Assembly: GCA_028291705.1 (NCBI GenBank)
Contig: JAQGNS010000189.1
Coordinates: 48,019 to 112,018, forward strand
Length of the DNA: 64,000 nucleotides
Direction of reading: 5' to 3'
Origin: Nevskia sp.
Lineage (GTDB): Bacteria > Pseudomonadota > Gammaproteobacteria > Nevskiales > Nevskiaceae
How positions within the stretch are numbered: the stretch's first letter is position 1; each line of letters begins with the position of its first letter. Position numbers and translations under genes: made by a program. This document shows positions 1,305 to 15,284 of the stretch, in pieces. The notes below the pieces were generated by a model that made no database searches, had not been told where the DNA came from, and was given only the letters and a program-made list of their open reading frames with translations.

Positions 1305-1973
1305 ATGCGTAAAGCAGCAAAGAAAGCTCCGCCGGTTCGAAAGCGCCGTGAACAGCAGCGCTCCATGGACACGCGCGACACGATCCTTAAGGCCGCTTTG
1401 GCGGAGTTTGCCGATAAGGGGTTCGATGGAGCTAGCATTCGCGTCATTGCCGAGCGTATAGGGCTGATGCACCAGCTGATCACCCATCACTTCAAGAACA
1501 AAGAAATCCTCTGGCAGGCTGTCGCCGATCATATCTTCGATCGTATTCGTGCTCGGTGGGACGAGCGGGTGCCTGAAGGATCGAGCCTGTCGCCGATCGA
1601 GCGTGTCCGCGAGGAATATCGCACGGTCTTCAATGTGACGTTGGAGTTTCCAGAATTTCATCACTTCATGCTCCGCGAAAGTCGCCCGGGCAGTCCGCGA
1701 ATGCCTTGGCTGGCGGAAAAGTACCTCAAACCGCTGATGGGACGTCTGCTACCGCAAATCACCGATGCTCAGGAGCAGGGTGACCTGCCTCCCGGTGATC
1801 CGGTACTCATTCACTATATGCTGATTGGCATGACTACGGCCCTGTCTTCGCTTGGCGCCGATATGGCCGCGACATCCGGTCGTACGCCAGAGAACCCGGC
1901 GGTGGTGGCCAACTACTGGACGTTACTCGAAGTGGTGATTCTCAATAAAAAACTTTACAAGCGGAAAGTTTAA
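1305..1973 (+). CDS. TetR/AcrR family transcriptional regulator (copy 1)
   Basis: N-terminal HTH: TRDTILKAALAEFADKGFDGASIRVIAERIGLMHQLITHHFKNKEILWQAV. Confidence 0.88.
   Translation: MRKAAKKAPPVRKRREQQRSMDTRDTILKAALAEFADKGFDGASIRVIAERIGLMHQLITHHFKNKEILWQAVADHIFDRIRARWDERVPEGSSLSPIERVREEYRTVFNVTLEFPEFHHFMLRESRPGSPRMPWLAEKYLKPLMGRLLPQITDAQEQGDLPPGDPVLIHYMLIGMTTALSSLGADMAATSGRTPENPAVVANYWTLLEVVILNKKLYKRKV
1950..1971 (+). promoter_or_regulatory. Candidate TetR operator copy 1 (AAACTTTACAAGCGGAAAGTTT), overlapping the 3' end of TetR copy 1
   Basis: Imperfect palindrome, 19/22 identical to the 2825 copy; right half overlaps a -10-like TTTAAT. Confidence 0.6.
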
Positions 1974-2182
1974 TAGTAGAGTTTTCTTCGGCTCCCGTGC
2001 CTGCGCGCCGGGATCGTTGTGCCGCCCCATGCAGCAGCAGGCTTCAATCGTGATGCCAGCGCAGCCGGCTATGCCGGCTCGTTTCGAGGCCGAGTCTGAA
2101 TGGTTGAGGGCGCCCGCAGCTTTCAGTAGGGGAGCCAGGACAGGCTGACGCAGGCTCAACCCAGGCCCCCCTACAGAGCTGT

Positions 2183-2848
2183 ATGAACGCTGTCATCAAA
2201 CGCAAAACCCCGGCTAGGCGCCGAGAGCAGCAGCGCGCCGTAGAGACCCGCCTGACAATCCTCAAGGCGGCGTTGTCCGAATTCGCGGACAAAGGGTTCG
2301 ACGCTGCCAGCATCCGTACCATCGCCGAACGGACCGGCTTGCGGCACCAGCTGATCACCTACCACTATCGCACCAAGGACGCTCTGTGGAAGGCCGTTGC
2401 CGAGCACGTTTTCACTCGAGTGCGCGAGTTGTGGGACGAGCGCGTTCCGGAAAACGGTCGGATGACACCGATTGAGCGGGTCCGCGAGGAGTACCGCGCG
2501 TTTTTCAACGTCACCCTCGATTATCCCGACCTGCATCACTTCATGCTCAGGGAGAGCCGCCCGGGCAGTTCGCGGATGCCATGGCTGGCGGAAAAATACC
2601 TGAAGCCGCTGCTTTCCCGGCTGCTCCCGCAGATTGTCGCAGCGCAGGCGGATGGAGAGCTGCCTCCGGGCGACCCCGCACTGATCCACTACATGTTGGT
2701 CGGCATGGCGACCGTGCTGACCTCTCTGGGCGCGGACATGGCCACGACATCTGGTCGGGAACCGAGTGATCCAGCTGTGATTGCCAATTACTGGACGCTG
2801 CTTGAAGCGATCATCCTCAATAAAAAACTTTACAACTGGCAAGTTTAA
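2183..2848 (+). CDS. TetR/AcrR family transcriptional regulator (copy 2)
   Basis: TRLTILKAALSEFADKGFDAASIRTIAERTGLRHQLITYHYRTKDALWKAV; strongly similar over full length to the 1305 gene. Confidence 0.88.
   Translation: MNAVIKRKTPARRREQQRAVETRLTILKAALSEFADKGFDAASIRTIAERTGLRHQLITYHYRTKDALWKAVAEHVFTRVRELWDERVPENGRMTPIERVREEYRAFFNVTLDYPDLHHFMLRESRPGSSRMPWLAEKYLKPLLSRLLPQIVAAQADGELPPGDPALIHYMLVGMATVLTSLGADMATTSGREPSDPAVIANYWTLLEAIILNKKLYNWQV
2825..2846 (+). promoter_or_regulatory. Candidate TetR operator copy 2 (AAACTTTACAACTGGCAAGTTT)
   Basis: Imperfect palindrome overlapping the 3' end of TetR copy 2 and a -10-like TTTAAT; upstream of the monooxygenase gene. Confidence 0.65.
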
Positions 2849-2914
2849 TAATATATTCCCTCCAAATGCGGAACCGGTGTTTGTTCGCTTACCGCTCAGC
2901 TGGAGGAAAAAATC

Positions 2915-4522
2915 TTGGACTCGATCCCTGTCTTGGTCGTCGGCGCCGGCCCTGTGGGCCTGGCGACGGCTTATGAACTGCAATCCCGTGGCATTCGCGT
3001 GCTGGTCGTCGAACGTAACGCGACAACTACGCGGCATCCCAAAATGGATGTCACGAACGGTCGGAGCATGGAGCACTTCCGCCGTCTCGGGATCGCAGAG
3101 AAGGTTCGCGACGCCGGCGTGTCCCGCGAAAACGTCATGGATGTGGCGTGGGTGACCCGCCTCGGCGAGTGGGAGGTGGCCAGGTTCAACTATCCCAACG
3201 TGCACGACTGGCGTGCGAAAATCGCGGATAACAACGACGGTACTCAGCCGCTCGAACCGTACATGCGGATGAGCCAGATCGTGCTCGAACCCGTCCTGCG
3301 CGATCTGCTGCTGCAGTCTCCGCTCGCGGAGATCCGCTACGGCTGGGCGTTCGAGAGCTTCAAGGAGGACGCCGAGGGCGTTACTGTGACGATCCGCTCC
3401 GCCGACGGCAAAGCGGAGCAGGTGCGGTGCCAGCTGCTTGCCGGCTGCGACGGGGGCAACAGCCGGGTGCGCGAGCAGATGGGCATCACCTGCCAGGGTA
3501 AATGGTCCATCGTGCAGTTCTACATGATCCACTACCGCACGCCCAACCGCGACCTGATGCAGCGCTTTGGCGTCGCCTGGCATTACCAGTCGCCGGTCGG
3601 GGGAACCCTCATCGCCCAGGACGACAAGGAAATCTGGACGCTGCACAACATTATTCCGCCGGACGTCGACCCCAAGAGCATCGATCCGAAGAAGCTGCTG
3701 TTCGAATCCCTGGGCTTCGAGTTCGAGGCGGAGATCCTGCAGGCTAACCCCTGGACGCCGCACCTGGTCGTCGCGGACGGCTACGGCCGAGGGCGGGTTT
3801 GGCTGGGCGGAGATTCCACGCACCAGTACATTCCCACCGGTGGCTATGGCATGAACACTGGTATTGGCGATGCCGTGGATCTGGGCTGGAAGTTCGCTGC
3901 CGTTCTCGAGGGCTGGGGCGGACCAAAGCTGCTCGAAAGCATCGAGGTGGAGCGGCGTCCAGTCGGGCTCGCGAACTGCGAGGCCGCTGGTTACAACATG
4001 GACATCCGCATCAAGATCGCTGAAGCCTATTCACCTCTTGTCCATGAGGATTCCGAAGCCGGAGCGACGGCGCGCGAAGCCTGGGGTGCGCGGATTCTGG
4101 AACTGCTCAACGAGGAAAATGAATCGCTGGGCCTCGAACTGGACTATCGCTATCGCAATTCGCCAATTATTTGCTCCGAAGGCGACGAGCCGGAGTGGCA
4201 CCGCTTGAAATTCCAGGCGGGTACTTGGCCTGGGAAACGTGCCCCTCATGTGTTCTTGGAGTCCGGGAAGCCGATCTTCGACCTGTTCGGACAGTGGTTC
4301 ACGCTCCTGCAATTCGACGAGTCCGTCGATGTTTCGGGGATCGTGTCTGCCGCGGCTAACCGTAAGGTACCGCTGAAGGTCGTACGGGTCGACGACGCTA
4401 ACGCGCGGCGTATCTATGAACGCGACCTTGTGTTGATCCGGCCCGACCAGCATGTCGCCTGGCGCGGCGACGGCGTGCCGGATGACTGCATCGGCATCAT
4501 TGACCGCGCCCGGGGGGCTTGA
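2915..4522 (+). CDS. FAD-dependent aromatic-ring monooxygenase (MhpA/PheA/TfdB-like)
   Basis: PVLVVGAGPVGLATAYELQSRGIRVLVVERN, CDGGNSRVRE, WLGGDSTHQYIPTGGYGMNTGIGDAVDLGWKFAAVLEGW; TTG start. Confidence 0.88.
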   Translation: MDSIPVLVVGAGPVGLATAYELQSRGIRVLVVERNATTTRHPKMDVTNGRSMEHFRRLGIAEKVRDAGVSRENVMDVAWVTRLGEWEVARFNYPNVHDWRAKIADNNDGTQPLEPYMRMSQIVLEPVLRDLLLQSPLAEIRYGWAFESFKEDAEGVTVTIRSADGKAEQVRCQLLAGCDGGNSRVREQMGITCQGKWSIVQFYMIHYRTPNRDLMQRFGVAWHYQSPVGGTLIAQDDKEIWTLHNIIPPDVDPKSIDPKKLLFESLGFEFEAEILQANPWTPHLVVADGYGRGRVWLGGDSTHQYIPTGGYGMNTGIGDAVDLGWKFAAVLEGWGGPKLLESIEVERRPVGLANCEAAGYNMDIRIKIAEAYSPLVHEDSEAGATAREAWGARILELLNEENESLGLELDYRYRNSPIICSEGDEPEWHRLKFQAGTWPGKRAPHVFLESGKPIFDLFGQWFTLLQFDESVDVSGIVSAAANRKVPLKVVRVDDANARRIYERDLVLIRPDQHVAWRGDGVPDDCIGIIDRARGA

Positions 4523-4525
4523 ACC

Positions 4526-5635
4526 ATGACGATGAAATTCAATCCCGATGCTCCAACACATTTCGAGCGTCTTGAGCGACCGACTTCGATTGCCAAGGCG
4601 GTGGCGATATCGCGACTGATGTTCGAACGGCGCGACGTTGCGGAAATGACGCGCTTCCTGAAGGATTTCGGCTTGGTCCTGGTCGACGCCCCCAGACCGA
4701 CGCGCTACTTCAGAGGTTACGGTACCGCAGCTTGGCTGGTCTCGGTGACACCAGCGGATCAGGATCGCTTCGTCGGCTTTGCCGTCAGCGTTGGAGCCGC
4801 GGCGGATCTGTCAGTCCTGTCCAAGGAGGCTGGGGTTGCGATCGAAAGCGCTGGTGGCCCAGGCGGTGGGCAGCGTGTCCGCCTGACGGATCCAGACGGC
4901 CTGATTGTCGATGTCCTGCACGGCGAGGACAGTGTGGCTCACCTGCCGACCCGCCTCAGTCAGATCCCCGCAAATACCCCTGCCAACCGGGGCCGCATCA
5001 ATCAGGGCGTACGGACACCGATCGAACCGGCGCCGGTGTTCCGAATAGGGCACGTTGTCTTGCAGCGCCCCGATTTCGCTCGCTCGTCCACTTGGTACAT
5101 GCGGCACCTGGGTCTGATTCCCTCGGACGTCCAGCTCCTGGAAGACGGCAAGCCGGCGATGGGCTTCTTCCGCCTCGATCGCGGCGCTGACCCGACCGAC
5201 CACCACAGCGTGGCGATCCTCGGAGGTCCGGCAGTCTCGTTGCTCCATGTGTCTTTCGAGACCTTCGACCTAGAATCAATCGGCCAGGGACATCAGTTTC
5301 TGCGCGCGCAGGGATGGACGCCATACTGGGGGATCGGCCGCCACAACCTGGGCAGCCAGATCTTCGACTATTGGAAGGATCCGGTCGGTGACGAGTGGGA
5401 GCACTACGCCGACGGCGACCTGATGGACGCCTCCAATCCCACCGGATACCACGCACTGACGCGCGGGACCCTGTGGGCCTGGGGCCAGGATCTGCCCGCC
5501 TCGATGCGTCCGCCGCTCAAGCTGGAGGAGGTCCCTCACATTCACGCCGCCGGCGGATTCGGAAAGATGGACCTTCAAGCGGTGAGCGGCCTGATGAAGG
5601 CTCTTCTGGCCAAGCCCCGCCCCTGGATGGAATAG
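4526..5635 (+). CDS. VOC-superfamily extradiol (catechol 2,3-)dioxygenase-like protein
   Basis: Two VOC modules; metal-ligand pattern HVVLQ...LLHVSFE...GDEWEHYADGD. Confidence 0.82.
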   Translation: MTMKFNPDAPTHFERLERPTSIAKAVAISRLMFERRDVAEMTRFLKDFGLVLVDAPRPTRYFRGYGTAAWLVSVTPADQDRFVGFAVSVGAAADLSVLSKEAGVAIESAGGPGGGQRVRLTDPDGLIVDVLHGEDSVAHLPTRLSQIPANTPANRGRINQGVRTPIEPAPVFRIGHVVLQRPDFARSSTWYMRHLGLIPSDVQLLEDGKPAMGFFRLDRGADPTDHHSVAILGGPAVSLLHVSFETFDLESIGQGHQFLRAQGWTPYWGIGRHNLGSQIFDYWKDPVGDEWEHYADGDLMDASNPTGYHALTRGTLWAWGQDLPASMRPPLKLEEVPHIHAAGGFGKMDLQAVSGLMKALLAKPRPWME

Positions 5636-5664
5636 GCCGCGACCATTTTTTTGGAGATTTGAAG

Positions 5665-6648
5665 ATGGGAATACTCATTGTTCGGTATCTGGATGGAAAG
5701 AAGATCAAGTGGGGCAGGCTGGAAGGGCCCGCGCCGTCCTCGAAGACCGAAAATCTGGAAGTGGTCCCCTTCGCGGGCAATCCGCGGACTACATCGGACC
5801 TGATCTCTGCCTTCGAGCGCGGCGAACTGCGCGCCGAGAAGAACACGACCATCACCATCGAGGCGAAGCAGCTACGCAGCCCGATCACGAACGACGCGAC
5901 CCTGCTCTGCCAGGGACTGAACTACCAGGACCACGCCGCCGAGGCGCAGCAACATATTCGCAAGCAAAACCTTTTCTTCGCCAAGGCCAGTTCAAGCATT
6001 TCTGGGGCCTACGATCCAATCATTCGGCCGAAGGAAGTCGAGCTGCTCGACTATGAGGTTGAATTCGGCGTTGTGATGCGCAAGACCCTGGATCACGAAC
6101 TCGAACCTGGGGAGGGGAATTTGGGCACCTACATTGCCGGCGTGGTGCTGGCTAACGACGTGTCCGCGCGAGACGTCATGTTCGGTGCTTCCTTCCTGCA
6201 GTGGTTCCAGGGGAAGAGCTACCGAACGTTCTGCCCGCTCGGACCGGTGCTCTACCTGCTCGAGAAGGACGAGGTCGAAACGGTTCTTTCGAATCTGGAG
6301 ATCAAGCTCTGGGTCAATGGAGAGCTGCGGCAGTCGGCGAAGTCCTCGCAGCTGATTTACGGTCCACTCGAAACACTCGGGCAGCTGTCCGGATTCATGA
6401 ACCTCAAGGTGGGCGATGTGATTCTGACAGGCACTCCCGGAGGCGTGACATCGCCGGCGTCGCCAAAGCTGGTGGAAATCCTGAAAACGCAGTTGATGGC
6501 GGATGCCCAGCGCAAGCTGGAATTGCGTACGGAAATGACCAAGGGGCGGCCTTTCTTGAAGCCTGGCGATGTGGTTCGTTCCACGTTCCACGACCTTCAC
6601 GCCGACCGATTCCTCGGAGGGCAGGAAAGCCGCATCGTTGCTGGCTAG
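5665..6648 (+). CDS. Fumarylacetoacetate hydrolase (FAH) family protein
   Basis: CQGLNYQDHAAEA, DYEVEFGVVM, NDVSARD, GDVILTGTPGGV; ATG at 5665 chosen over the longer ORF at 5395. Confidence 0.88.
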   Translation: MGILIVRYLDGKKIKWGRLEGPAPSSKTENLEVVPFAGNPRTTSDLISAFERGELRAEKNTTITIEAKQLRSPITNDATLLCQGLNYQDHAAEAQQHIRKQNLFFAKASSSISGAYDPIIRPKEVELLDYEVEFGVVMRKTLDHELEPGEGNLGTYIAGVVLANDVSARDVMFGASFLQWFQGKSYRTFCPLGPVLYLLEKDEVETVLSNLEIKLWVNGELRQSAKSSQLIYGPLETLGQLSGFMNLKVGDVILTGTPGGVTSPASPKLVEILKTQLMADAQRKLELRTEMTKGRPFLKPGDVVRSTFHDLHADRFLGGQESRIVAG

Positions 6649-6666
6649 TTCGATCGGGAGGGCGAG

Positions 6667-7911
6667 ATGACAAGTTCGGCTGCGGACCCAGGTACGGCCC
6701 CGAGGCGACTGAGCGACACGTTGTATTCGGACATGCTGCTGCCTCCAGAGACGATCGAAATCCGGAATGAGGCGAGGGCGTTTGCCGATCGGGTATTACG
6801 GCCGATCGCGCACGAGCTCAATTGCACGCCCGAGCGTGCCGACGCGTTCCGCTTCGATGTTTTTAAGGCGATCGCCGACGCGGGCCTCTACGAGATTCCC
6901 TACGGCAAGGATGTCGGTGGCCGTGGCCTGACCTACCCGACGCTGGGAACTCTGGTCGTCACGGAGGAGCTGGCCTACTACTCACCGGGCATCGCTTCAG
7001 CGATGTACGACGCCCAGGCGATCCTGGTGGGCGGCACACTCAACAGTGCAGGCGGCACTCTGCGCCGGGAATTCCTGCCGCGCATCGTGCGCGGCGAATT
7101 CGTCGCGTCCTTTGCCACCAGCGAACCCGAAGCGAGCACGGACCTGTCGCCTGCGGCGATCCGTACGGTCGCAACACGGGCGCAGGGCGGCTGGACGCTG
7201 AACGGCGTCAAGCGCTGGATCACCAATTCTCCGGCGGCCGAGTTCGTGGTGCTGCTCTGCCGTACCGGCGACCAGTTGTCGATGATGTTGGCCAACATGC
7301 GCGACCCAGGCGTCAAGGTCTCCGCGCCCGATCTGAAGATGGGCAACCATCCCCAACTCACTGCCGACATCACGTTCACGAATGTCTTCGTGCCTGACGA
7401 GCATGTGGTCGGCGCCGTAGGCGGCGGCCTCAGGGTGGCTTTGTCGTCACTGATGCTGGGCAGGATGGGCATCGGCGCCGTTGGTGTCGGTATGGGACAA
7501 AGGGCGATGGATGTGGCCACGGACTACATTCAGCACCGGAAAGTTTACGGACGGCCCATCGCCTCATTCCAACACTGGCAATTCCGGTTCGCAGAGCTTG
7601 CTACGGAACTTGAAACCGCGCGCAGCCTGTACCTCAAGGGCGCCTATGTGCAGGACCGTGGCGGTGATGCCTCGATCCTCGCTTCGATGGCTAAGGTGAA
7701 AGGCAGCGAGACCGCGGTCGATATCGCCAGGCAGGCGATACAGGCCTGCGGTGCCTATGGATTTGCCAGGCATATCAGCGGCTCCAACGAAAAGTGGCCG
7801 CTGGAGGCGATCTACCGCGACGCCAAAATCGGCGAGATCTACGAAGGTGCCAACGAAATCCAGAAATGGATCGTCGCGCGCCAAATCTTCGGCCGGACAA
7901 TTACGGGCTGA
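6667..7911 (+). CDS. Acyl-CoA dehydrogenase family protein
   Basis: ASFATSEPEASTD, GWTLNGVKRWITNSPAAEF, RKVYGRPIASFQHWQFRFAEL, AIYRDAKIGEIYEGANEIQKWIVAR. Confidence 0.9.
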   Translation: MTSSAADPGTAPRRLSDTLYSDMLLPPETIEIRNEARAFADRVLRPIAHELNCTPERADAFRFDVFKAIADAGLYEIPYGKDVGGRGLTYPTLGTLVVTEELAYYSPGIASAMYDAQAILVGGTLNSAGGTLRREFLPRIVRGEFVASFATSEPEASTDLSPAAIRTVATRAQGGWTLNGVKRWITNSPAAEFVVLLCRTGDQLSMMLANMRDPGVKVSAPDLKMGNHPQLTADITFTNVFVPDEHVVGAVGGGLRVALSSLMLGRMGIGAVGVGMGQRAMDVATDYIQHRKVYGRPIASFQHWQFRFAELATELETARSLYLKGAYVQDRGGDASILASMAKVKGSETAVDIARQAIQACGAYGFARHISGSNEKWPLEAIYRDAKIGEIYEGANEIQKWIVARQIFGRTITG

Positions 7912-7924
7912 GATTGGCTGCAGG

Positions 7925-7940
7925 CCGGTTCTGATACCGG
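7925..7940 (+). promoter_or_regulatory. Palindrome CCGGTTCTGATACCGG (second operator family, copy 1)
   Basis: 13/16 identical to the 8014 copy; in the 557-bp intergenic region. Confidence 0.4.
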
Positions 7941-7964
7941 GCAGGATCGATTGGCACCATCTAT

Positions 7965-7986
7965 ATACTTGCCAATCGTAAAGATA
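7965..7986 (-). promoter_or_regulatory. Candidate TetR operator copy 3 (inverted orientation)
   Basis: Reverse complement TATCTTTACGATTGGCAAGTAT is 17/22 identical to the 2825 copy. Confidence 0.55.
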
Positions 7987-8013
7987 AATAACGAATACTC
8001 CTGCGATGCCAAA

Positions 8014-8029
8014 CCGGTATTCATACCGG
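8014..8029 (+). promoter_or_regulatory. Palindrome CCGGTATTCATACCGG (second operator family, copy 2)
   Basis: Perfect 7-bp arms around TC. Confidence 0.42.
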
Positions 8030-8142
8030 CAATGGATCCTCTGCAGCCGATGAAATTCATATAAATAGCTGGATTTATCGACTTCAATCCCGAATCACTA
8101 TGTCCGCCGTTCGTCGGCTGCCTGGATTTTGAGCTACCTTAT

Positions 8143-8164
8143 AAACTTGACAGACGGCAAGTAT
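8143..8164 (+). promoter_or_regulatory. Candidate TetR operator copy 4 (AAACTTGACAGACGGCAAGTAT) overlapping -10-like TATAAT
   Basis: 17/22 identical to the 2825 copy; TATAAT at 8162-8167. Confidence 0.6.
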
Positions 8165-8229
8165 AATGAAATAGTCGGCTCAGACAGTAGACGCGGCCAA
8201 GACCGCGCGACAGTGGAGGAGAAGGCGAG

Positions 8230-8352
8230 ATGGAAGGCGTTATTCAGCTTGCGACGTGCCATCAGTTTTTTTCGCTGGCACCACCTTGGATGCTCCAGGT
8301 GAGTGCCGCACTCCGCGGTCCGCGCCTCTACTCCGCAACGGTGCCCGCATGA
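8230..8352 (+). CDS. Putative 40-aa small ORF / leader peptide
   Basis: ATG at 8230 preceded by GGAGGAG (8215-8221); reads MEGVIQLATCHQFFSLAPPWMLQVSAALRGPRLYSATVPA*; too short for the supplied track. Confidence 0.4.
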   Translation: MEGVIQLATCHQFFSLAPPWMLQVSAALRGPRLYSATVPA

Positions 8353-8467
8353 CGCAGCCCGGGAATTTCAATTCGAACCAGCGCGCGACTGGTCAATTCA
8401 GCCCTGCCTTGTACTGGCAGTAGCGCCTTAATCCAGATCCAGAAACGAAGTAGAGGAGGAGAACAAC

Positions 8468-9829
8468 GTGTCTACCAGCAGGATGTTCATCCTGGCCGCC
8501 GTCGCGGCGGCCAGCATCACGGGTCAAGCGATCGCAGCCGTGTCGCCTGACGAGGCGGCCAAGCTCAAGACCACGCTGACCCCGCTCGGCGCGGAGCGCG
8601 CCGGCAATGCCGACGGCAGCATCCCCGCCTGGACGGGCGGCTACACCACGGTTGTTCCCGGCTGGACGCCGGACAAGCCCCGCCCGGATCCGTTTGCCGA
8701 CGAGAAGCCGTTGTACTCCGTGACCGGCGAGAACGCCGACAAGTACGGCGACAAGCTGAGCGAAGGCGTCAAGGCGGTCCTGAAGAAGTATCCCGACTGG
8801 CGCATCGATGTGTATCCGACGCACCGCACCGCAGCGGCACCGCAGTACGTCTACGACAACACCTACGCTAACGCCACCCGGGCCGAGCTCGTCAACGACG
8901 GCATCTCCACCAAGGGCGCCTATGGTGGAATCCCTTTCCCGATCGTCAAAACCGGCGCGGAGGCGATCTGGAATCACCTGCTCTCATGGCACGCCGAAAG
9001 CAAGCACCTGTTCGGCGACACGCTGGTGATGACGTCCGACGGCAAACTGGTGTTGGCCTCGACTAGCGACAGCTACATGCAGTACCCGTATTACGACCAC
9101 CACAACAGCCTGGAGAAGTTCGGCGACGGCGATTTCTGGTGGCTTGACCAGACCAACGTGGCCCCGCCGTACAAGGCCGGCGAGCGCCTCCTGGTCCGCG
9201 ACCCGGTCGACATCGCCAAGGGCCGCAAAGCATGGCAATACCTGGTCGGACAGCGTCGCGTCCGCCTGGCGCCGACGGTGGCGTTCGACACCCCCAACTT
9301 CATTACCTCGGGCGTCGCCAACTTCGATGAGACGTTCATGTTCAATGGCTCCCCCGAGCGCTACACCTGGAAGCTCGTGGGCAAGAAGGAAATGATCGTT
9401 CCCTACAACCAAAACAGGCTGGGAGTGGAAGCCCAGTCAGGGCACGAGGACCAGATTGCCAAGCCGCACTTCCTCAATCCGGATCTGACGCGCTGGGAGC
9501 TGCACCGCGTCTGGGTCGTCGAAGGCGAGCTCCGGCCCGGCGCGCGTCATACCGAGCCAAAGCGCCGTTTCTACCTCGACGAGGACACCTGGTTCGCCAT
9601 GCTGGCCGAGAGCTATGACGCGCAAGGCCACCTCTGGAAGTACTACCAGGCCATCCCCTTTCTCTATCCCGACCTGCCCGGGGTGGTCTCGGAAAGCGGC
9701 GTGGTGTTCAACCTGCTGGACGGGAACTACGTTGTCGATTTCCTGCAGGTCAAGCCGACCAGGTTCATTCCGAACATGCCGGCCTCCGCGTTCACTCCCG
9801 AGGCGATCGCCGCCTCCAGCGTGAAGTAG
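8468..9829 (+). CDS. DUF1329 domain-containing (LolB-like outer-membrane/periplasmic) protein
   Basis: Signal peptide, then VSPDEAAKLKTTLTPLGAERAGNADGSIPAWTGG; GTG start with GAGGAGGAG Shine-Dalgarno. Confidence 0.82.
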   Translation: MSTSRMFILAAVAAASITGQAIAAVSPDEAAKLKTTLTPLGAERAGNADGSIPAWTGGYTTVVPGWTPDKPRPDPFADEKPLYSVTGENADKYGDKLSEGVKAVLKKYPDWRIDVYPTHRTAAAPQYVYDNTYANATRAELVNDGISTKGAYGGIPFPIVKTGAEAIWNHLLSWHAESKHLFGDTLVMTSDGKLVLASTSDSYMQYPYYDHHNSLEKFGDGDFWWLDQTNVAPPYKAGERLLVRDPVDIAKGRKAWQYLVGQRRVRLAPTVAFDTPNFITSGVANFDETFMFNGSPERYTWKLVGKKEMIVPYNQNRLGVEAQSGHEDQIAKPHFLNPDLTRWELHRVWVVEGELRPGARHTEPKRRFYLDEDTWFAMLAESYDAQGHLWKYYQAIPFLYPDLPGVVSESGVVFNLLDGNYVVDFLQVKPTRFIPNMPASAFTPEAIAASSVK

Positions 9830-9856
9830 GTCCAGGACCCGTTGCCGGGAGCGCTC

Positions 9857-10912
9857 ATGAAGTCCCAACTGATCTGTGCCGCACTGCTCGCCGCGTCGGC
9901 GGTTGCAGACGCCGGCGTCGACGTGGTGAGCCGTCCGGCGGAACCTGCAATCTACGGCTCCCACTCCGTCATGCTCGACGTGGCCCGAGCTGGCAATCGT
10001 CTCGTTGCTGTCGGCGAGCGGGGTATCGTGCTGGTCTCGGACGACAGCGGGATCAACTGGAAGCAGAGCCCAGTGCCGACCAGCGTCAGCCTGGTGAAGC
10101 TTGCGTTTGCGACGTCGGACCTGGGTTGGGCAGTGGGTCATTTCGGGACCGTCCTGCACACGCAGGACGGTGGCAAGACCTGGGAGCGCCAGCTCGGCGG
10201 CGTGCAGGCGGCGAAGCTGGCGTTGCAGTATTTCGAAGACCTGTCGCAGAAAGGGGGAGGGGATCCGCAAGCTCTGGCCAAGCAGGTCGCCGATGCCAAA
10301 CAGCTCGTCGACGACGGCCCGGACAAGCCATTCCTCGACGTTTTCTTCGACACCCCGCAGCACGGATTCATCGTTGGCGCCTACAACCTCATTTTCTCGA
10401 CCTCCGACGGAGGCAAGAGCTGGGTTCCCTGGCAAGACCACGTCGACAATCCGCGCGGCTTGCATCTTTACGCAATCCACCAGATCGGCACCGACTGGTA
10501 CATCGCCGGTGAACAGGGCTTGCTGCTCAAATCGGTAGATGGCGGGCAAAGCTTCCGTGCGCTGAAGTCGCCCTACGACGGAAGCTTCTTCGGCGTGACG
10601 CCAGGATCCGCCTCCGACGTCCTGGCATTCGGCCTGCGCGGCAACGTGTTCCGCTCCACGGACAACGGCCAGACGTGGACGCCGGCCAGGACCACCATAT
10701 CCCCGACCTGGAACGCAGGCTCACTGTTGAATGGAGCCGTCTACCTAGGCGGGCAAGACGGGCAGCTCGATCGCTTGGGCCGGGAAGGCGATGTCGACCA
10801 CTTGGTCAAGACCGCTTCGGCGGCTCCTATCACAGGTATCGCCGCGGCGCCTGATGGTGCCTTAGTCCTGAGCCGCATGGGTGGGATGGATCGCATCCCC
10901 CTGAATCAATAG
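9857..10912 (+). CDS. YCF48/BNR-like beta-propeller secreted protein
   Basis: Signal peptide; repeats such as DDSGINWKQSPVPT, QDGGKTWERQL, SDGGKSWVPW, VDGGQSFRAL, TDNGQTWTPA. Confidence 0.78.
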   Translation: MKSQLICAALLAASAVADAGVDVVSRPAEPAIYGSHSVMLDVARAGNRLVAVGERGIVLVSDDSGINWKQSPVPTSVSLVKLAFATSDLGWAVGHFGTVLHTQDGGKTWERQLGGVQAAKLALQYFEDLSQKGGGDPQALAKQVADAKQLVDDGPDKPFLDVFFDTPQHGFIVGAYNLIFSTSDGGKSWVPWQDHVDNPRGLHLYAIHQIGTDWYIAGEQGLLLKSVDGGQSFRALKSPYDGSFFGVTPGSASDVLAFGLRGNVFRSTDNGQTWTPARTTISPTWNAGSLLNGAVYLGGQDGQLDRLGREGDVDHLVKTASAAPITGIAAAPDGALVLSRMGGMDRIPLNQ

Positions 10913-10923
10913 GCGAGATCGAC

Positions 10924-13338
10924 ATGGATACCAACACCTCGGGAGCGGAATATCCCGTCATCTCCAAGCTGGCGGATTTCGACCGGTCGTCGGGTTCCCT
11001 CGGTGAAAGGCTGATCTTCAACAACCGGCTCCTGGTCGTCATTCTGTGCCTGGCGATCACCCTGGTCCTGGCGTTCGAGATGACGCACATCCGCGCCAAC
11101 GCCAGCTTCGAGAGGATGATTCCGCGGCAGCAGCCGTATATCGCCAACTACCTGGCGAACAAGTCCGAGTTGAGTGGCGTCGGCAACAGCGTGCGCATCG
11201 CCGTCGCGGCGACCCACGGCACCATCCTGGACGCGGGGTACCTGCAGCGCCTACAGAAGATCAACGACGAGGTGTTCCTGCTGCCCGGCGTCGACCGCGC
11301 CTACATGAAGTCCCTGTGGACGCCGAACACCCGCTGGATCGCGGTGACCGAGGAGGGCCTCGACGGCGGCACCGTGATGCCGGACGACTACGACGGTTCT
11401 GCGGCGAGCCTGGCCCGCGTGCGCGCCAACATCGAGCGCTCGGGCGAGATCGGCCAGCTGGTCGCCGCCGACTACCAGTCGAGCATCATCGCCATTCCGT
11501 TGCTGGACCGACTGCCGGACGGCTCGCCGCTGGACTACCGCCAGCTGTCGCTGAGCCTGGAGCAGGTCCGCGCGAAGTACCAGGACGCGGACCTCAGCAT
11601 CCACATCGTCGGCTTTGCCAAGGTCGCCGGCGATCTGATCGAAGGGCTGCGGCAGGTCGGTGGCTTCTTCCTGGTCGCGTTGCTGATGGCGACGGTGATG
11701 GTTTATTGGTTCAACCGCGACCTACGCAGCACGGTGCTGGTGGTGTTCTGCTCGCTGGTGGCCGTGATCTGGCAGCTGGGCATTCTTGCGGCCCTGCGCA
11801 TGGATCTCGATCCGTATTCGATGCTGGTGCCCTTTTTGGTCTTCGCTATCGGGATGAGCCACGGCACCCAGAAAATGAACGGCATCCTGCAGGATATCGG
11901 CCGGGGGACGCACCGGCTGATCGCCGCGCGCTACACATTCCGCCGCCTGTTCGTACCGGGCCTCACCGCCTTGTTGTGCGATGCGGTGGGATTTGCGGTT
12001 CTGATGATCATTCACATTGAAGTGATCCAGGAGCTGGCGATAGCCGCCAGCATCGGCGTGGGGGTACTGATCTTTACCAACCTGGTCCTGCTCCCAGTGT
12101 TGCTGAGCTACACCGGCGTGGGCGCTCACGCCGCCGCCCGCAGCGTGCGGGCCGAAGCGCAGGACAGCAAGCCGCGCATCTGGCAGTTCCTGGACCTGTT
12201 CACACAGCGCGAATGGGCCAGTGTTGCCCTGCTGGGTTCGGTGCTGCTCGGCGTTGCCGCTTACGTCGTCTCGACCCACCTGCAGATCGGCGACCTCGAC
12301 TCCGGCGCCCCCGAGCTGCGCCCCGATTCCCGCTACAACCTCGACAATGCCTTCATCGTCTCCCACTACACCAACAGCTCGGACGTGCTGGTGACGATGG
12401 TGAAGACCCCGGACTATGGCTGCGCCACCTACGAGACGCAGGAGCGTGTCGACGCGCTGGAGCAGAAGTTGCGCCGGGTTCCGGGCGTGGAGGGAACACA
12501 GTCACTAGCCGGTCTCAGCCGCAATGTCATCATGCAGATGAACGAGGGATCGCCTAAGTGGTACGAGCTGATTCCCAATACCAGCGTGCTCGGTTCGATT
12601 CTCACCAAGTCACCGCGCGAGCTGTTCAATCAGACCTGCTCGATCGTCCCAGTGTTCGCCTACCTCAAGGACCACAAGGCGCAGACGCTGACCTCGACGG
12701 TGCAGGCGGTGGAGGACTTCGCCGCCGAAAACAACTCGCCGAAGTTCCAGGTGCTTCTAGCCGCGGGCAACGCCGGCATCGATGCCGCGACCAATATCGT
12801 GGTCAAGAGCGCCTCCAGGCAGATGCTTTATTGGGTCTACGGCGCGGTGATCCTGCTCAGCTTCGTCACCTTCAGATCCTGGCGCGCGGTCACCGCCGCG
12901 GTGCTGCCCCTGGTGTTGACCTCGATTCTTTGTGAAGCCCTGATGGTAGCCCTAGGTATCGGCGTGAAGGTCGCCACCTTGCCGGTAATCGCTCTGGGCG
13001 TAGGCATCGGCGTCGATTACGCATTGTATGTGCTCAGCGTCACCCTCGCGCAGATGCGCAAGGGCAAGTCGCTGTCCGAGGCCTATTTCCAGGCCCTGCA
13101 GTTCACCGGGAAGGTCGTGCTGCTGACTGGGCTGACCCTGGGCGCGGCCGTGGCCACCTGGATCCTGTCGCCGATCAAGTTCCAGGCCGACATGGGGATC
13201 CTGCTGGCCTTCATGTTCGTCTGGAACATGCTGGGCGCGTTGGTGCTGCTGCCCGCGCTCGCCCACTTCTTGTTGAAACCCGTGAAGGTCTCCACTGCCG
13301 AGGCCAAACGGGATGGCGTGTTGGCGTCCACAAAGTGA
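10924..13338 (+). CDS. MMPL/RND family transporter
   Basis: 804 aa with two TM clusters, GVGIGVDYALYVLSV, SHGTQKMNGI, large periplasmic loops. Confidence 0.87.
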   Translation: MDTNTSGAEYPVISKLADFDRSSGSLGERLIFNNRLLVVILCLAITLVLAFEMTHIRANASFERMIPRQQPYIANYLANKSELSGVGNSVRIAVAATHGTILDAGYLQRLQKINDEVFLLPGVDRAYMKSLWTPNTRWIAVTEEGLDGGTVMPDDYDGSAASLARVRANIERSGEIGQLVAADYQSSIIAIPLLDRLPDGSPLDYRQLSLSLEQVRAKYQDADLSIHIVGFAKVAGDLIEGLRQVGGFFLVALLMATVMVYWFNRDLRSTVLVVFCSLVAVIWQLGILAALRMDLDPYSMLVPFLVFAIGMSHGTQKMNGILQDIGRGTHRLIAARYTFRRLFVPGLTALLCDAVGFAVLMIIHIEVIQELAIAASIGVGVLIFTNLVLLPVLLSYTGVGAHAAARSVRAEAQDSKPRIWQFLDLFTQREWASVALLGSVLLGVAAYVVSTHLQIGDLDSGAPELRPDSRYNLDNAFIVSHYTNSSDVLVTMVKTPDYGCATYETQERVDALEQKLRRVPGVEGTQSLAGLSRNVIMQMNEGSPKWYELIPNTSVLGSILTKSPRELFNQTCSIVPVFAYLKDHKAQTLTSTVQAVEDFAAENNSPKFQVLLAAGNAGIDAATNIVVKSASRQMLYWVYGAVILLSFVTFRSWRAVTAAVLPLVLTSILCEALMVALGIGVKVATLPVIALGVGIGVDYALYVLSVTLAQMRKGKSLSEAYFQALQFTGKVVLLTGLTLGAAVATWILSPIKFQADMGILLAFMFVWNMLGALVLLPALAHFLLKPVKVSTAEAKRDGVLASTK

Positions 13339-13364
13339 AAAGAGTGTAACTGAGGAGATCATCA

Positions 13365-15284
13365 ATGAAGTTCTGGCGTGGAGGGGGATCCGCCCGGCGG
13401 ATCCACGCGGCGCTGCAAATGTCGATCGTGGTTCTTGGCGTGGCGCTTTGGGGGCCAGCGGAGGCAATGAATCTGAATCTTGGCGTTCCGAATCTGGATG
13501 CCAGTCTCGATACGGATCTGCGCTATAACGTCGGCGTTCGCGTACAGAAGCGGAATCCGGAGGTAGGGCTCAACTCCTCCTACGATCAGTCCGATTACCG
13601 ATTCGGTCAGGGCGCAATTGTGACTGACCGCGTTGACGCGACGCCCCAGCTCCAGTTGAAGTACAACGCCGGGTGGAGCCTGCTTCCGTCCCTTGGCATC
13701 CGGGTGACGGGCAACGCGTTCAGGGACTTCGCCTACAACAACGATACGACTGCGTGCCGTCCTGGCACGGCTCCGGTGGGGCTGCCGCCGGGCCTTCTGG
13801 GTCCGACGTTTCCGGGTGTGGCGCTGCCAGGCCAGAGACTGTCGTATTGCGATCCTCAGATCAGTGACTACAACGATGCGACATACAACCACGAAGCACG
13901 GCGCTCCAGCTTTGAGTACGCTGAATTGCTGGACGCGTTCACCTTCATGAATTTCCAGTTCGGCAGCGTGCCGGTCAACGTAAAGGCCGGCCATTACGCG
14001 TTGTTCTGGGGTGAGTCGCTGTTCAACCCGTTCCTGGGCGTCTCGGCCGGGATGGGCCCGGTCGACCTCAACAAGCTCCTGAGCGTGCCGGGCTCGAACG
14101 CGCAGGATCTGTTCAGACCGGTGAACCAGATATCGGCCACCGCAACCGTAACGCCGGAGCTGTCGGTAGGATTCCAGTACTTCCTGCCGTGGTTGGGCTG
14201 GGACCATGTCAGAGGTCCGGAAGGCGGCACCTTCCTGAACCCACTCGATGCTCTGTTCTACGGCCCGGACAAGTTCTACATCACCACGCTCCCGTATGCG
14301 GGCCCTTATTCTTTGATACGCGCTGAAGATATTCGCGGCGACAATCATGGAAACTACGGCCTCCAGGCGAAGTTGACGTCCCATTTCCTCTTCGATGCGA
14401 CCTACGGCTTCTACTACCGGCAGTTCGATGAAACGCTGCCCTGGCTGAATCCACGTCCCGCGACGCCGCAGAACCAGCCTGCAATTTTTGCTAACGCGAC
14501 TCAGTTGTCGACTCTGCTCGGCATTCCAGCTGCCGCGCTGTCCGCATTTCCGGGCGACTACAGGCTTGTCTTTCCGAAGAGGACCCGCATGCTCGGCCTG
14601 AGCATGTCGACGCAGCAACTGGGGATCAGCATCGGCGCCGATGTCGCGTACTCGCCGAATCGTGCCCTGCAATCCGAGTTGTTCGCAGTGGACAACAGCG
14701 GTTTGCGTGCCAGAGGGCAAACCTTGTCGGGGGTGATCAACGGCCTATACCTGACGCCCTCGGTGTCCGTGGCCGGATTCAAGCTATGGGATTCTGCCAC
14801 CATCATCACGGAGCTGAACTGGAGCTATCTGCTCAAGGTGACGGAGGGTCAGCAGTTCTACAAGGGCGTGAACACGGATGCATGTCGTGCCGATGCCGGC
14901 ATCTCTGGTGCGATCAATGTACCAGGCGAAACTGTAGACGGATGCTCAAGCCGCTACAGCCTGGGCATCAGCTTCGCGTTCCAGCCGAACTGGTATCAGG
15001 TCTTTCCAGGTATCGATCTGAACGGGTCGGTCGTCTTCCAGGACGGTGTCAAGAACGACTCTCCGATCAATGGGGCCTCGTATGAAGGCCAGATCACGGG
15101 ATCAGTGGGTGTCGGCGCCCTGTTCTACAACAAGGTCACCGCAGCACTGGCCTACAACTTCTACGGTGTCGAGCATCGTGACGGGCCGAATCTGGACGGC
15201 GAGATTGTCGACACGAGCGTGAACTACCTTGGAGATATCCGCGACCGTGCGTGGACATCTCTGACGCTGAAGTATTCGTTTTAG
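13365..15284 (+). CDS. DUF1302 family outer-membrane beta-barrel-like protein
   Basis: Signal peptide, LDTDLRYNVGVRVQKRNPEV, C-terminal aromatic residue (LTLKYSF); typical neighbour of DUF1329. Confidence 0.78.
   Translation: MKFWRGGGSARRIHAALQMSIVVLGVALWGPAEAMNLNLGVPNLDASLDTDLRYNVGVRVQKRNPEVGLNSSYDQSDYRFGQGAIVTDRVDATPQLQLKYNAGWSLLPSLGIRVTGNAFRDFAYNNDTTACRPGTAPVGLPPGLLGPTFPGVALPGQRLSYCDPQISDYNDATYNHEARRSSFEYAELLDAFTFMNFQFGSVPVNVKAGHYALFWGESLFNPFLGVSAGMGPVDLNKLLSVPGSNAQDLFRPVNQISATATVTPELSVGFQYFLPWLGWDHVRGPEGGTFLNPLDALFYGPDKFYITTLPYAGPYSLIRAEDIRGDNHGNYGLQAKLTSHFLFDATYGFYYRQFDETLPWLNPRPATPQNQPAIFANATQLSTLLGIPAAALSAFPGDYRLVFPKRTRMLGLSMSTQQLGISIGADVAYSPNRALQSELFAVDNSGLRARGQTLSGVINGLYLTPSVSVAGFKLWDSATIITELNWSYLLKVTEGQQFYKGVNTDACRADAGISGAINVPGETVDGCSSRYSLGISFAFQPNWYQVFPGIDLNGSVVFQDGVKNDSPINGASYEGQITGSVGVGALFYNKVTAALAYNFYGVEHRDGPNLDGEIVDTSVNYLGDIRDRAWTSLTLKYSF

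Follow-up and report, generated by a model that had tools for sequence, protein, structure and literature searches.

A 22-bp palindrome as the probable operator of a TetR-family aromatic catabolic regulon, with two copies lying in the coding ends of the repressor genes

The 22-bp element that recurs in the 64,000-nucleotide stretch of Nevskia DNA analysed here (the window) is best understood as an operator through which a TetR-family repressor, be it T1, T2 or both, would control an aromatic catabolic regulon of about 40 kb; on the comparative evidence we give this reading a probability of about 0.87. In this scenario a TetR dimer would bind an interrupted palindrome laid over the promoter core, blocking RNA polymerase, and a metabolite of the pathway would release it. 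We infer binding, repression, inducer and autoregulation alike from the sequence; autoregulation is probable because the second tetR gene lies behind operator 1. Control of this sort is familiar: an interrupted palindrome of 22 bp has a form suited to a TetR dimer, and CymR, PaaR and RolR are TetR-family local repressors of catabolic operons. With such repressors the window shares the TetR_N domain, palindromic operators over promoters and a regulator beside its target operon; it differs in operator sequence, in its tandem pair of paralogues, in the scatter of its eight operators and in the location of two of these inside the regulators' coding ends. A regulon of known kind, with an unusual overlap of operator and coding sequence, is a well-supported description.

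The preliminary description listed four copies of the element, and all four are present at the positions it gave. Operator 1, AAACTTTACAAGCGGAAAGTTT, occupies 1950-1971 (+) within the last codons of tetR1, upstream of tetR2, and scores 32.2 bits; operator 2, AAACTTTACAACTGGCAAGTTT, at 2825-2846 (+), is contained in the final codons of tetR2 and precedes the monooxygenase operon (33.7 bits). Operator 3, TATCTTTACGATTGGCAAGTAT, at 7965-7986 (-), separates the acyl-CoA dehydrogenase gene from the DUF1329 gene, in the gap that they leave, and is the weakest (27.4 bits); operator 4, AAACTTGACAGACGGCAAGTAT, at 8143-8164 (+), lies upstream of the DUF1329 operon (30.9 bits). They carry one, zero, three and zero mismatches, respectively, to the core proposed earlier, which found no chance match in 100 dinucleotide shuffles of the window. 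The unit is an interrupted palindrome, readable on either strand at each site; the former distinction between direct and inverted copies therefore carries little weight. The window operators are less symmetric than many sites in relatives. Copies 1 and 2 are not mutually independent, as they end homologous genes (73% DNA identity over gene and operator). The centres of operators 3 and 4 are 178 bp apart, or about 17.0 helical turns, a spacing at which DNA looping would be allowed.

The two regulators are encoded in tandem: tetR1 (1305-1973, +) specifies a protein of 222 aa, T1, with the recognition helix HQLITHH, and tetR2 (2183-2848, +) one of 221 aa, T2, 71% identical to T1, with HQLITYH. 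Both have an N-terminal TetR_N DNA-binding domain (PF00440; 44.9 and 44.6 bits, where the Pfam cut-off is 24 bits). The predicted model of T2 consists entirely of helices, with a mean pLDDT of 90.2, and has a TetR-family fold; in it helices 44-51 and 55-61 form the expected helix-turn-helix, the latter being the recognition helix. Among solved structures RutR (4x1e) is the best profile match (E 3.4e-14). Neither protein belongs to the RutR family, however, since their scores fall far below the NCBIfam cut-offs: 47.0 and 41.5 bits against 230 for NF011584, and 40.9 and 45.2 against 368 for TIGR03613.

The position-weight scan suggested in the preliminary description was run on the host contig (C362) with a symmetric weight matrix and found exactly eight sites, at 27.4-34.0 bits; the ninth-best score is 10.8, and the maximum in 30 simulated contigs is 15.7. 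The matrix was trained on these same eight sites and their own scores are inflated as a result; the gap in scores, and the tests in other genomes, are unaffected. The family of four is thus real but is half of a set of eight, the remainder lying outside the window, further upstream on C362. In contig numbering the window operators are at C362:49968, 50843, 55983 and 56161. The upstream sites are at C362:18990, about 80 bp before an amidohydrolase gene (operon); at C362:27198, between divergent genes for an aldehyde dehydrogenase and an FAD (flavin) monooxygenase; at C362:30084, between an alcohol dehydrogenase gene and an operon for a P450 and a VanA-type Rieske protein; and at C362:42168, before the gene for IcmF, a fused isobutyryl-CoA mutase. 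Upstream of tetR1 the matrix finds no site of at least 10 bits. The other contigs (whole genome 5.88 Mb, 614 contigs) contain no match to the 18-bp core with zero or one mismatch, and no near DNA copy of the locus was found among plasmids. A single TetR regulon covering the second tetR gene, the monooxygenase operon and the DUF1329 operon was the original proposal, and the comparative evidence argues for all three targets; its size was underestimated, as the four upstream transcription units or gene pairs also appear to belong.

Behind operator 2 come an FAD-dependent aromatic hydroxylase (2915-4522, +; FAD_binding_3, Rng_hyd_C), a glyoxalase/extradiol-dioxygenase (VOC) protein (4526-5635, +; PF00903, with a weak match to biphenyl-2,3-diol dioxygenase), a fumarylacetoacetate-hydrolase (FAAH) family protein (5665-6648, +; PF01557) and an acyl-CoA dehydrogenase (6667-7911, +; PF00441, PF02770, PF02771). 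Operators 3 and 4 precede an envelope operon (8468-15284, +) whose products match the DUF1329, YCF48-like, MMPL/RND and DUF1302 families of Pfam. Taken together, these enzymes suggest hydroxylation and cleavage of the ring and hydrolysis of an aromatic compound, with an isobutyryl-CoA-type intermediate and an envelope transporter resembling AmeABCD. The last, from Castellaniella defragrans, exports monoterpenes (PMC6394551); there, too, DUF1302, DUF1329, YCF48-like (COG4447) and RND proteins are encoded together in a catabolic island, in a different gene order (PMC6394551). The IcmF gene (C362:38863-42216, -), outside the window, passes the NCBIfam equivalog NF045497 (1944.9 bits, cut-off 1500); its place behind a regulon operator hints at a substrate from which isobutyryl-CoA, or a branched acyl-CoA like it, is formed. 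In the leader of about 300 nt between operator 4 and the DUF1329 gene there is a 40-codon ORF, MEGVIQLATCHQFF... (8230-8352, +), preceded by TGGAGGAG, which might encode a leader peptide or small protein.

Just three sigma-70-like promoters are predicted in 1850-8600 (1.6 expected), and they coincide with operators 1, 2 and 4: TTTACA-17-TAGAGT, TTTACA-17-TATATT and TTGACA-17-AATAGT, each using the left half of the operator as its -35. In the three direct copies the right half of the element was earlier read as overlapping a -10-like hexamer. Such a hexamer is indeed common at the right edge in relatives, several of which have TATAGT there and TTGAAA or TTGCAT 17 bp upstream, so that the operator fills the promoter spacer; operator 4 has TATAAT at this edge. 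The scan of the window nevertheless prefers the left half as -35, with the -10 further downstream. On either promoter reading the operator would cover the promoter core, and steric repression is predicted. No promoter of its own could be assigned to operator 3.

Relatives of the TetR proteins were collected by protein similarity alone, in a search with a six-sequence alignment (a single-protein query matched nothing). The resulting 72 loci (1.41 Mb) contain 92 sites of at least 18 bits, distributed over 48 loci, where about one would be expected by chance; Markov sequences gave two in three replicates, and column-permuted matrices zero or one each. Some of the loci are closely related or overlapping, and the sites are accordingly not all independent; some of the more distant loci have no site. 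The consensus across genera is close to ATACTTTACGATCGTAAAGTAT. When the eight C362 sites are included there are 95 distinct sites, 85 of them no more than 500 bp from where a gene is predicted to start; 11 of the 95 lie inside predicted ORFs, some perhaps through wrong start calls. The neighbours recur as well. Several Paraburkholderia-type loci have a site some 80-100 bp ahead of an amidohydrolase gene whose product is 69-73% identical to that encoded behind C362:18990. Near TetR in sphingomonads and Burkholderia there is the monooxygenase-VOC-FAA-hydrolase operon; copies of the monooxygenase beside related TetR genes are 61-68% identical to that of the window. No earlier account of the motif, of its overlap with coding sequence or of the regulon turned up in the literature searched, which leaves out most subscription journals. 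What sequence alone defines here is an operator code, with its regulon, for a TetR subfamily whose genes accompany clusters for aromatic degradation (in Burkholderiaceae, Bradyrhizobium, sphingomonads and others), and the regulon becomes predictable across genomes.

The half-site varies with the recognition helix of the accompanying TetR protein. HPL proteins are paired with TTTAC (or TTCAC/TTTCC) and HQL proteins with TTGCC; in sphingomonads, YTL proteins accompany TCCAC-like palindromes. To the HQL group belong T1, T2 and the proteins of five Mitsuaria/Roseateles/Rubrivivax loci that share a conserved TTTGCCNNNCGGCAAGTTTTAAT ahead of tetR. In these loci (L078-L082) TTTGCCNNNCGGCAAGTTTTAATGTGT is conserved about 200 bp upstream of tetR; its right half matches the right half of window operator 2, and the TetR there has the HQL helix. 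The co-variation of helix and half-site is a strong lead, not proof, because few independent lineages are involved; it does supply pairs of repressor and operator ready for testing. One might go further and suppose that the operators are hybrids on which T1 and T2 act together as a heterodimer, or as separate repressors between which the half-site preference is split. The inner half-sites are TTAC, TGCC, TGAC and TTCC, and no operator among the eight pairs two identical ones; many relatives with a single TetR have a near-perfect TTAC/TTAC palindrome. Random re-pairing gives P ~0.08 for this absence of homotypic sites, and the seven of eight operators mixed at the A/C position give P ~0.09. Since Cupriavidus genomes that have one TetR contain asymmetric sites too, a heterodimer is not claimed, and we regard such an arrangement as distinctly doubtful.

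That operators 1 and 2 are translated has a likely origin in the layout of this TetR family, in which the operator can be placed at the very end of tetR, with the next gene immediately after it; two operators inside coding sequence would follow from this. As the preliminary description had noted, the copies encode the C-termini KKLYKRKV* and KKLYNWQV*. In five sphingomonad loci (L028, L037, L039, L043 and L050) the tetR stop codon marks the start of a palindrome, and the monooxygenase operon comes next; examples from sphingomonad loci are CAATAAATCTGTCAACTGACAAATTTAG and TAAACTCCACAACTGTAGAGTTT. The TetR-monooxygenase-VOC-FAAH module of Sphingopyxis granuli pRW412a (L028) and Sphingobium is like the window in gene order after tetR, with a monooxygenase 63-68% identical; unlike the window, its operator begins at the stop codon, is untranslated and has another half-site sequence. 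The window equivalent, CTCAATAAAAAACTTTACAACTGGCAAGTTTAA, contains the same AATAA string one base out of phase (CTC AAT AAA versus TTC CAA TAA), so that translation runs through the operator to a TAA at its right edge. In this lineage the frame difference would add eight residues, probably with no function of their own; the direction of the change is presumably toward read-through. The arrangement is not universal: in Undibacterium, which outside the host is the closest relative (72-74%), the end of tetR lacks an operator, and the only one lies about 5.6 kb downstream. Relatives of T1 and T2 have no comparable KKLYxxxV tail, and the last 10 or so residues of T2 are modelled with low confidence (pLDDT); the tail accordingly looks like a by-product of operator position. 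Where the T1 and T2 tails share a residue the codon is identical in six of six cases, against 47% gene-wide (P ~0.01), which points to selection on DNA rather than peptide. The tails are not unusual in rare codons compared with the genes of the cluster (14th and 28th percentile). An operator read through into the C-terminus of its putative repressor would be a clear case of regulatory DNA turned coding sequence, and a caution that a conserved protein end need not be functional.

This account of the tail has to be set against the supposition that the KKLYxxxV peptide is itself what is conserved, that sites 1 and 2 are alike through recent paralogy, and that the intergenic sites alone are operators. 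T1 and T2 are indeed homologous to the last codon, with the copies at the same place. Yet the relatives manage without the tail, a palindrome is retained at this place in sphingomonads although it is not translated, and the synonymous positions are all identical; moreover, the changed residues fall in the spacer and the inner right half, the outer bases being kept, and sites 1 and 2 score alongside the intergenic ones with sequence that matches half-sites elsewhere. We hold this peptide-based explanation to be extremely improbable. Another idea, that only some sites work, operators 1 and 3 being relics and tetR2 not autoregulated, seems to us unlikely. Operator 1, more than 200 bp from tetR2, may be a mere by-product of the tetR duplication, and operator 3 combines the lowest score with a position far from any gene start; but operator 1 keeps both half-sites and its promoter-like sequence although the genes have diverged to 73% DNA identity, and operator 3 stands far above background.

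The sites might also be bound by another regulator in or near the cluster, with the tetR genes as bystanders: on the contig, genes for a LysR-type regulator and for a PAS/sigma-54 activator lie close to the sites. This we judge very improbable: in many genera, among changing neighbours, the motif accompanies this TetR subfamily, its half-sites change together with the recognition helix of TetR, and its length and symmetry fit a TetR dimer. The TetR operator remains the preferred reading.

On the Sphingobium sp. CFD-1 plasmid pCFD-1-4 (L029:10284-11449) the related tetR is truncated and runs directly into an FAA-hydrolase gene, as though the intervening genes for the monooxygenase and the VOC protein had been lost by deletion. 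In Cupriavidus basilensis OR16 (L092:10001-10626) the tetR relative is in two pieces in different frames, the result of either pseudogene formation or a sequencing error.
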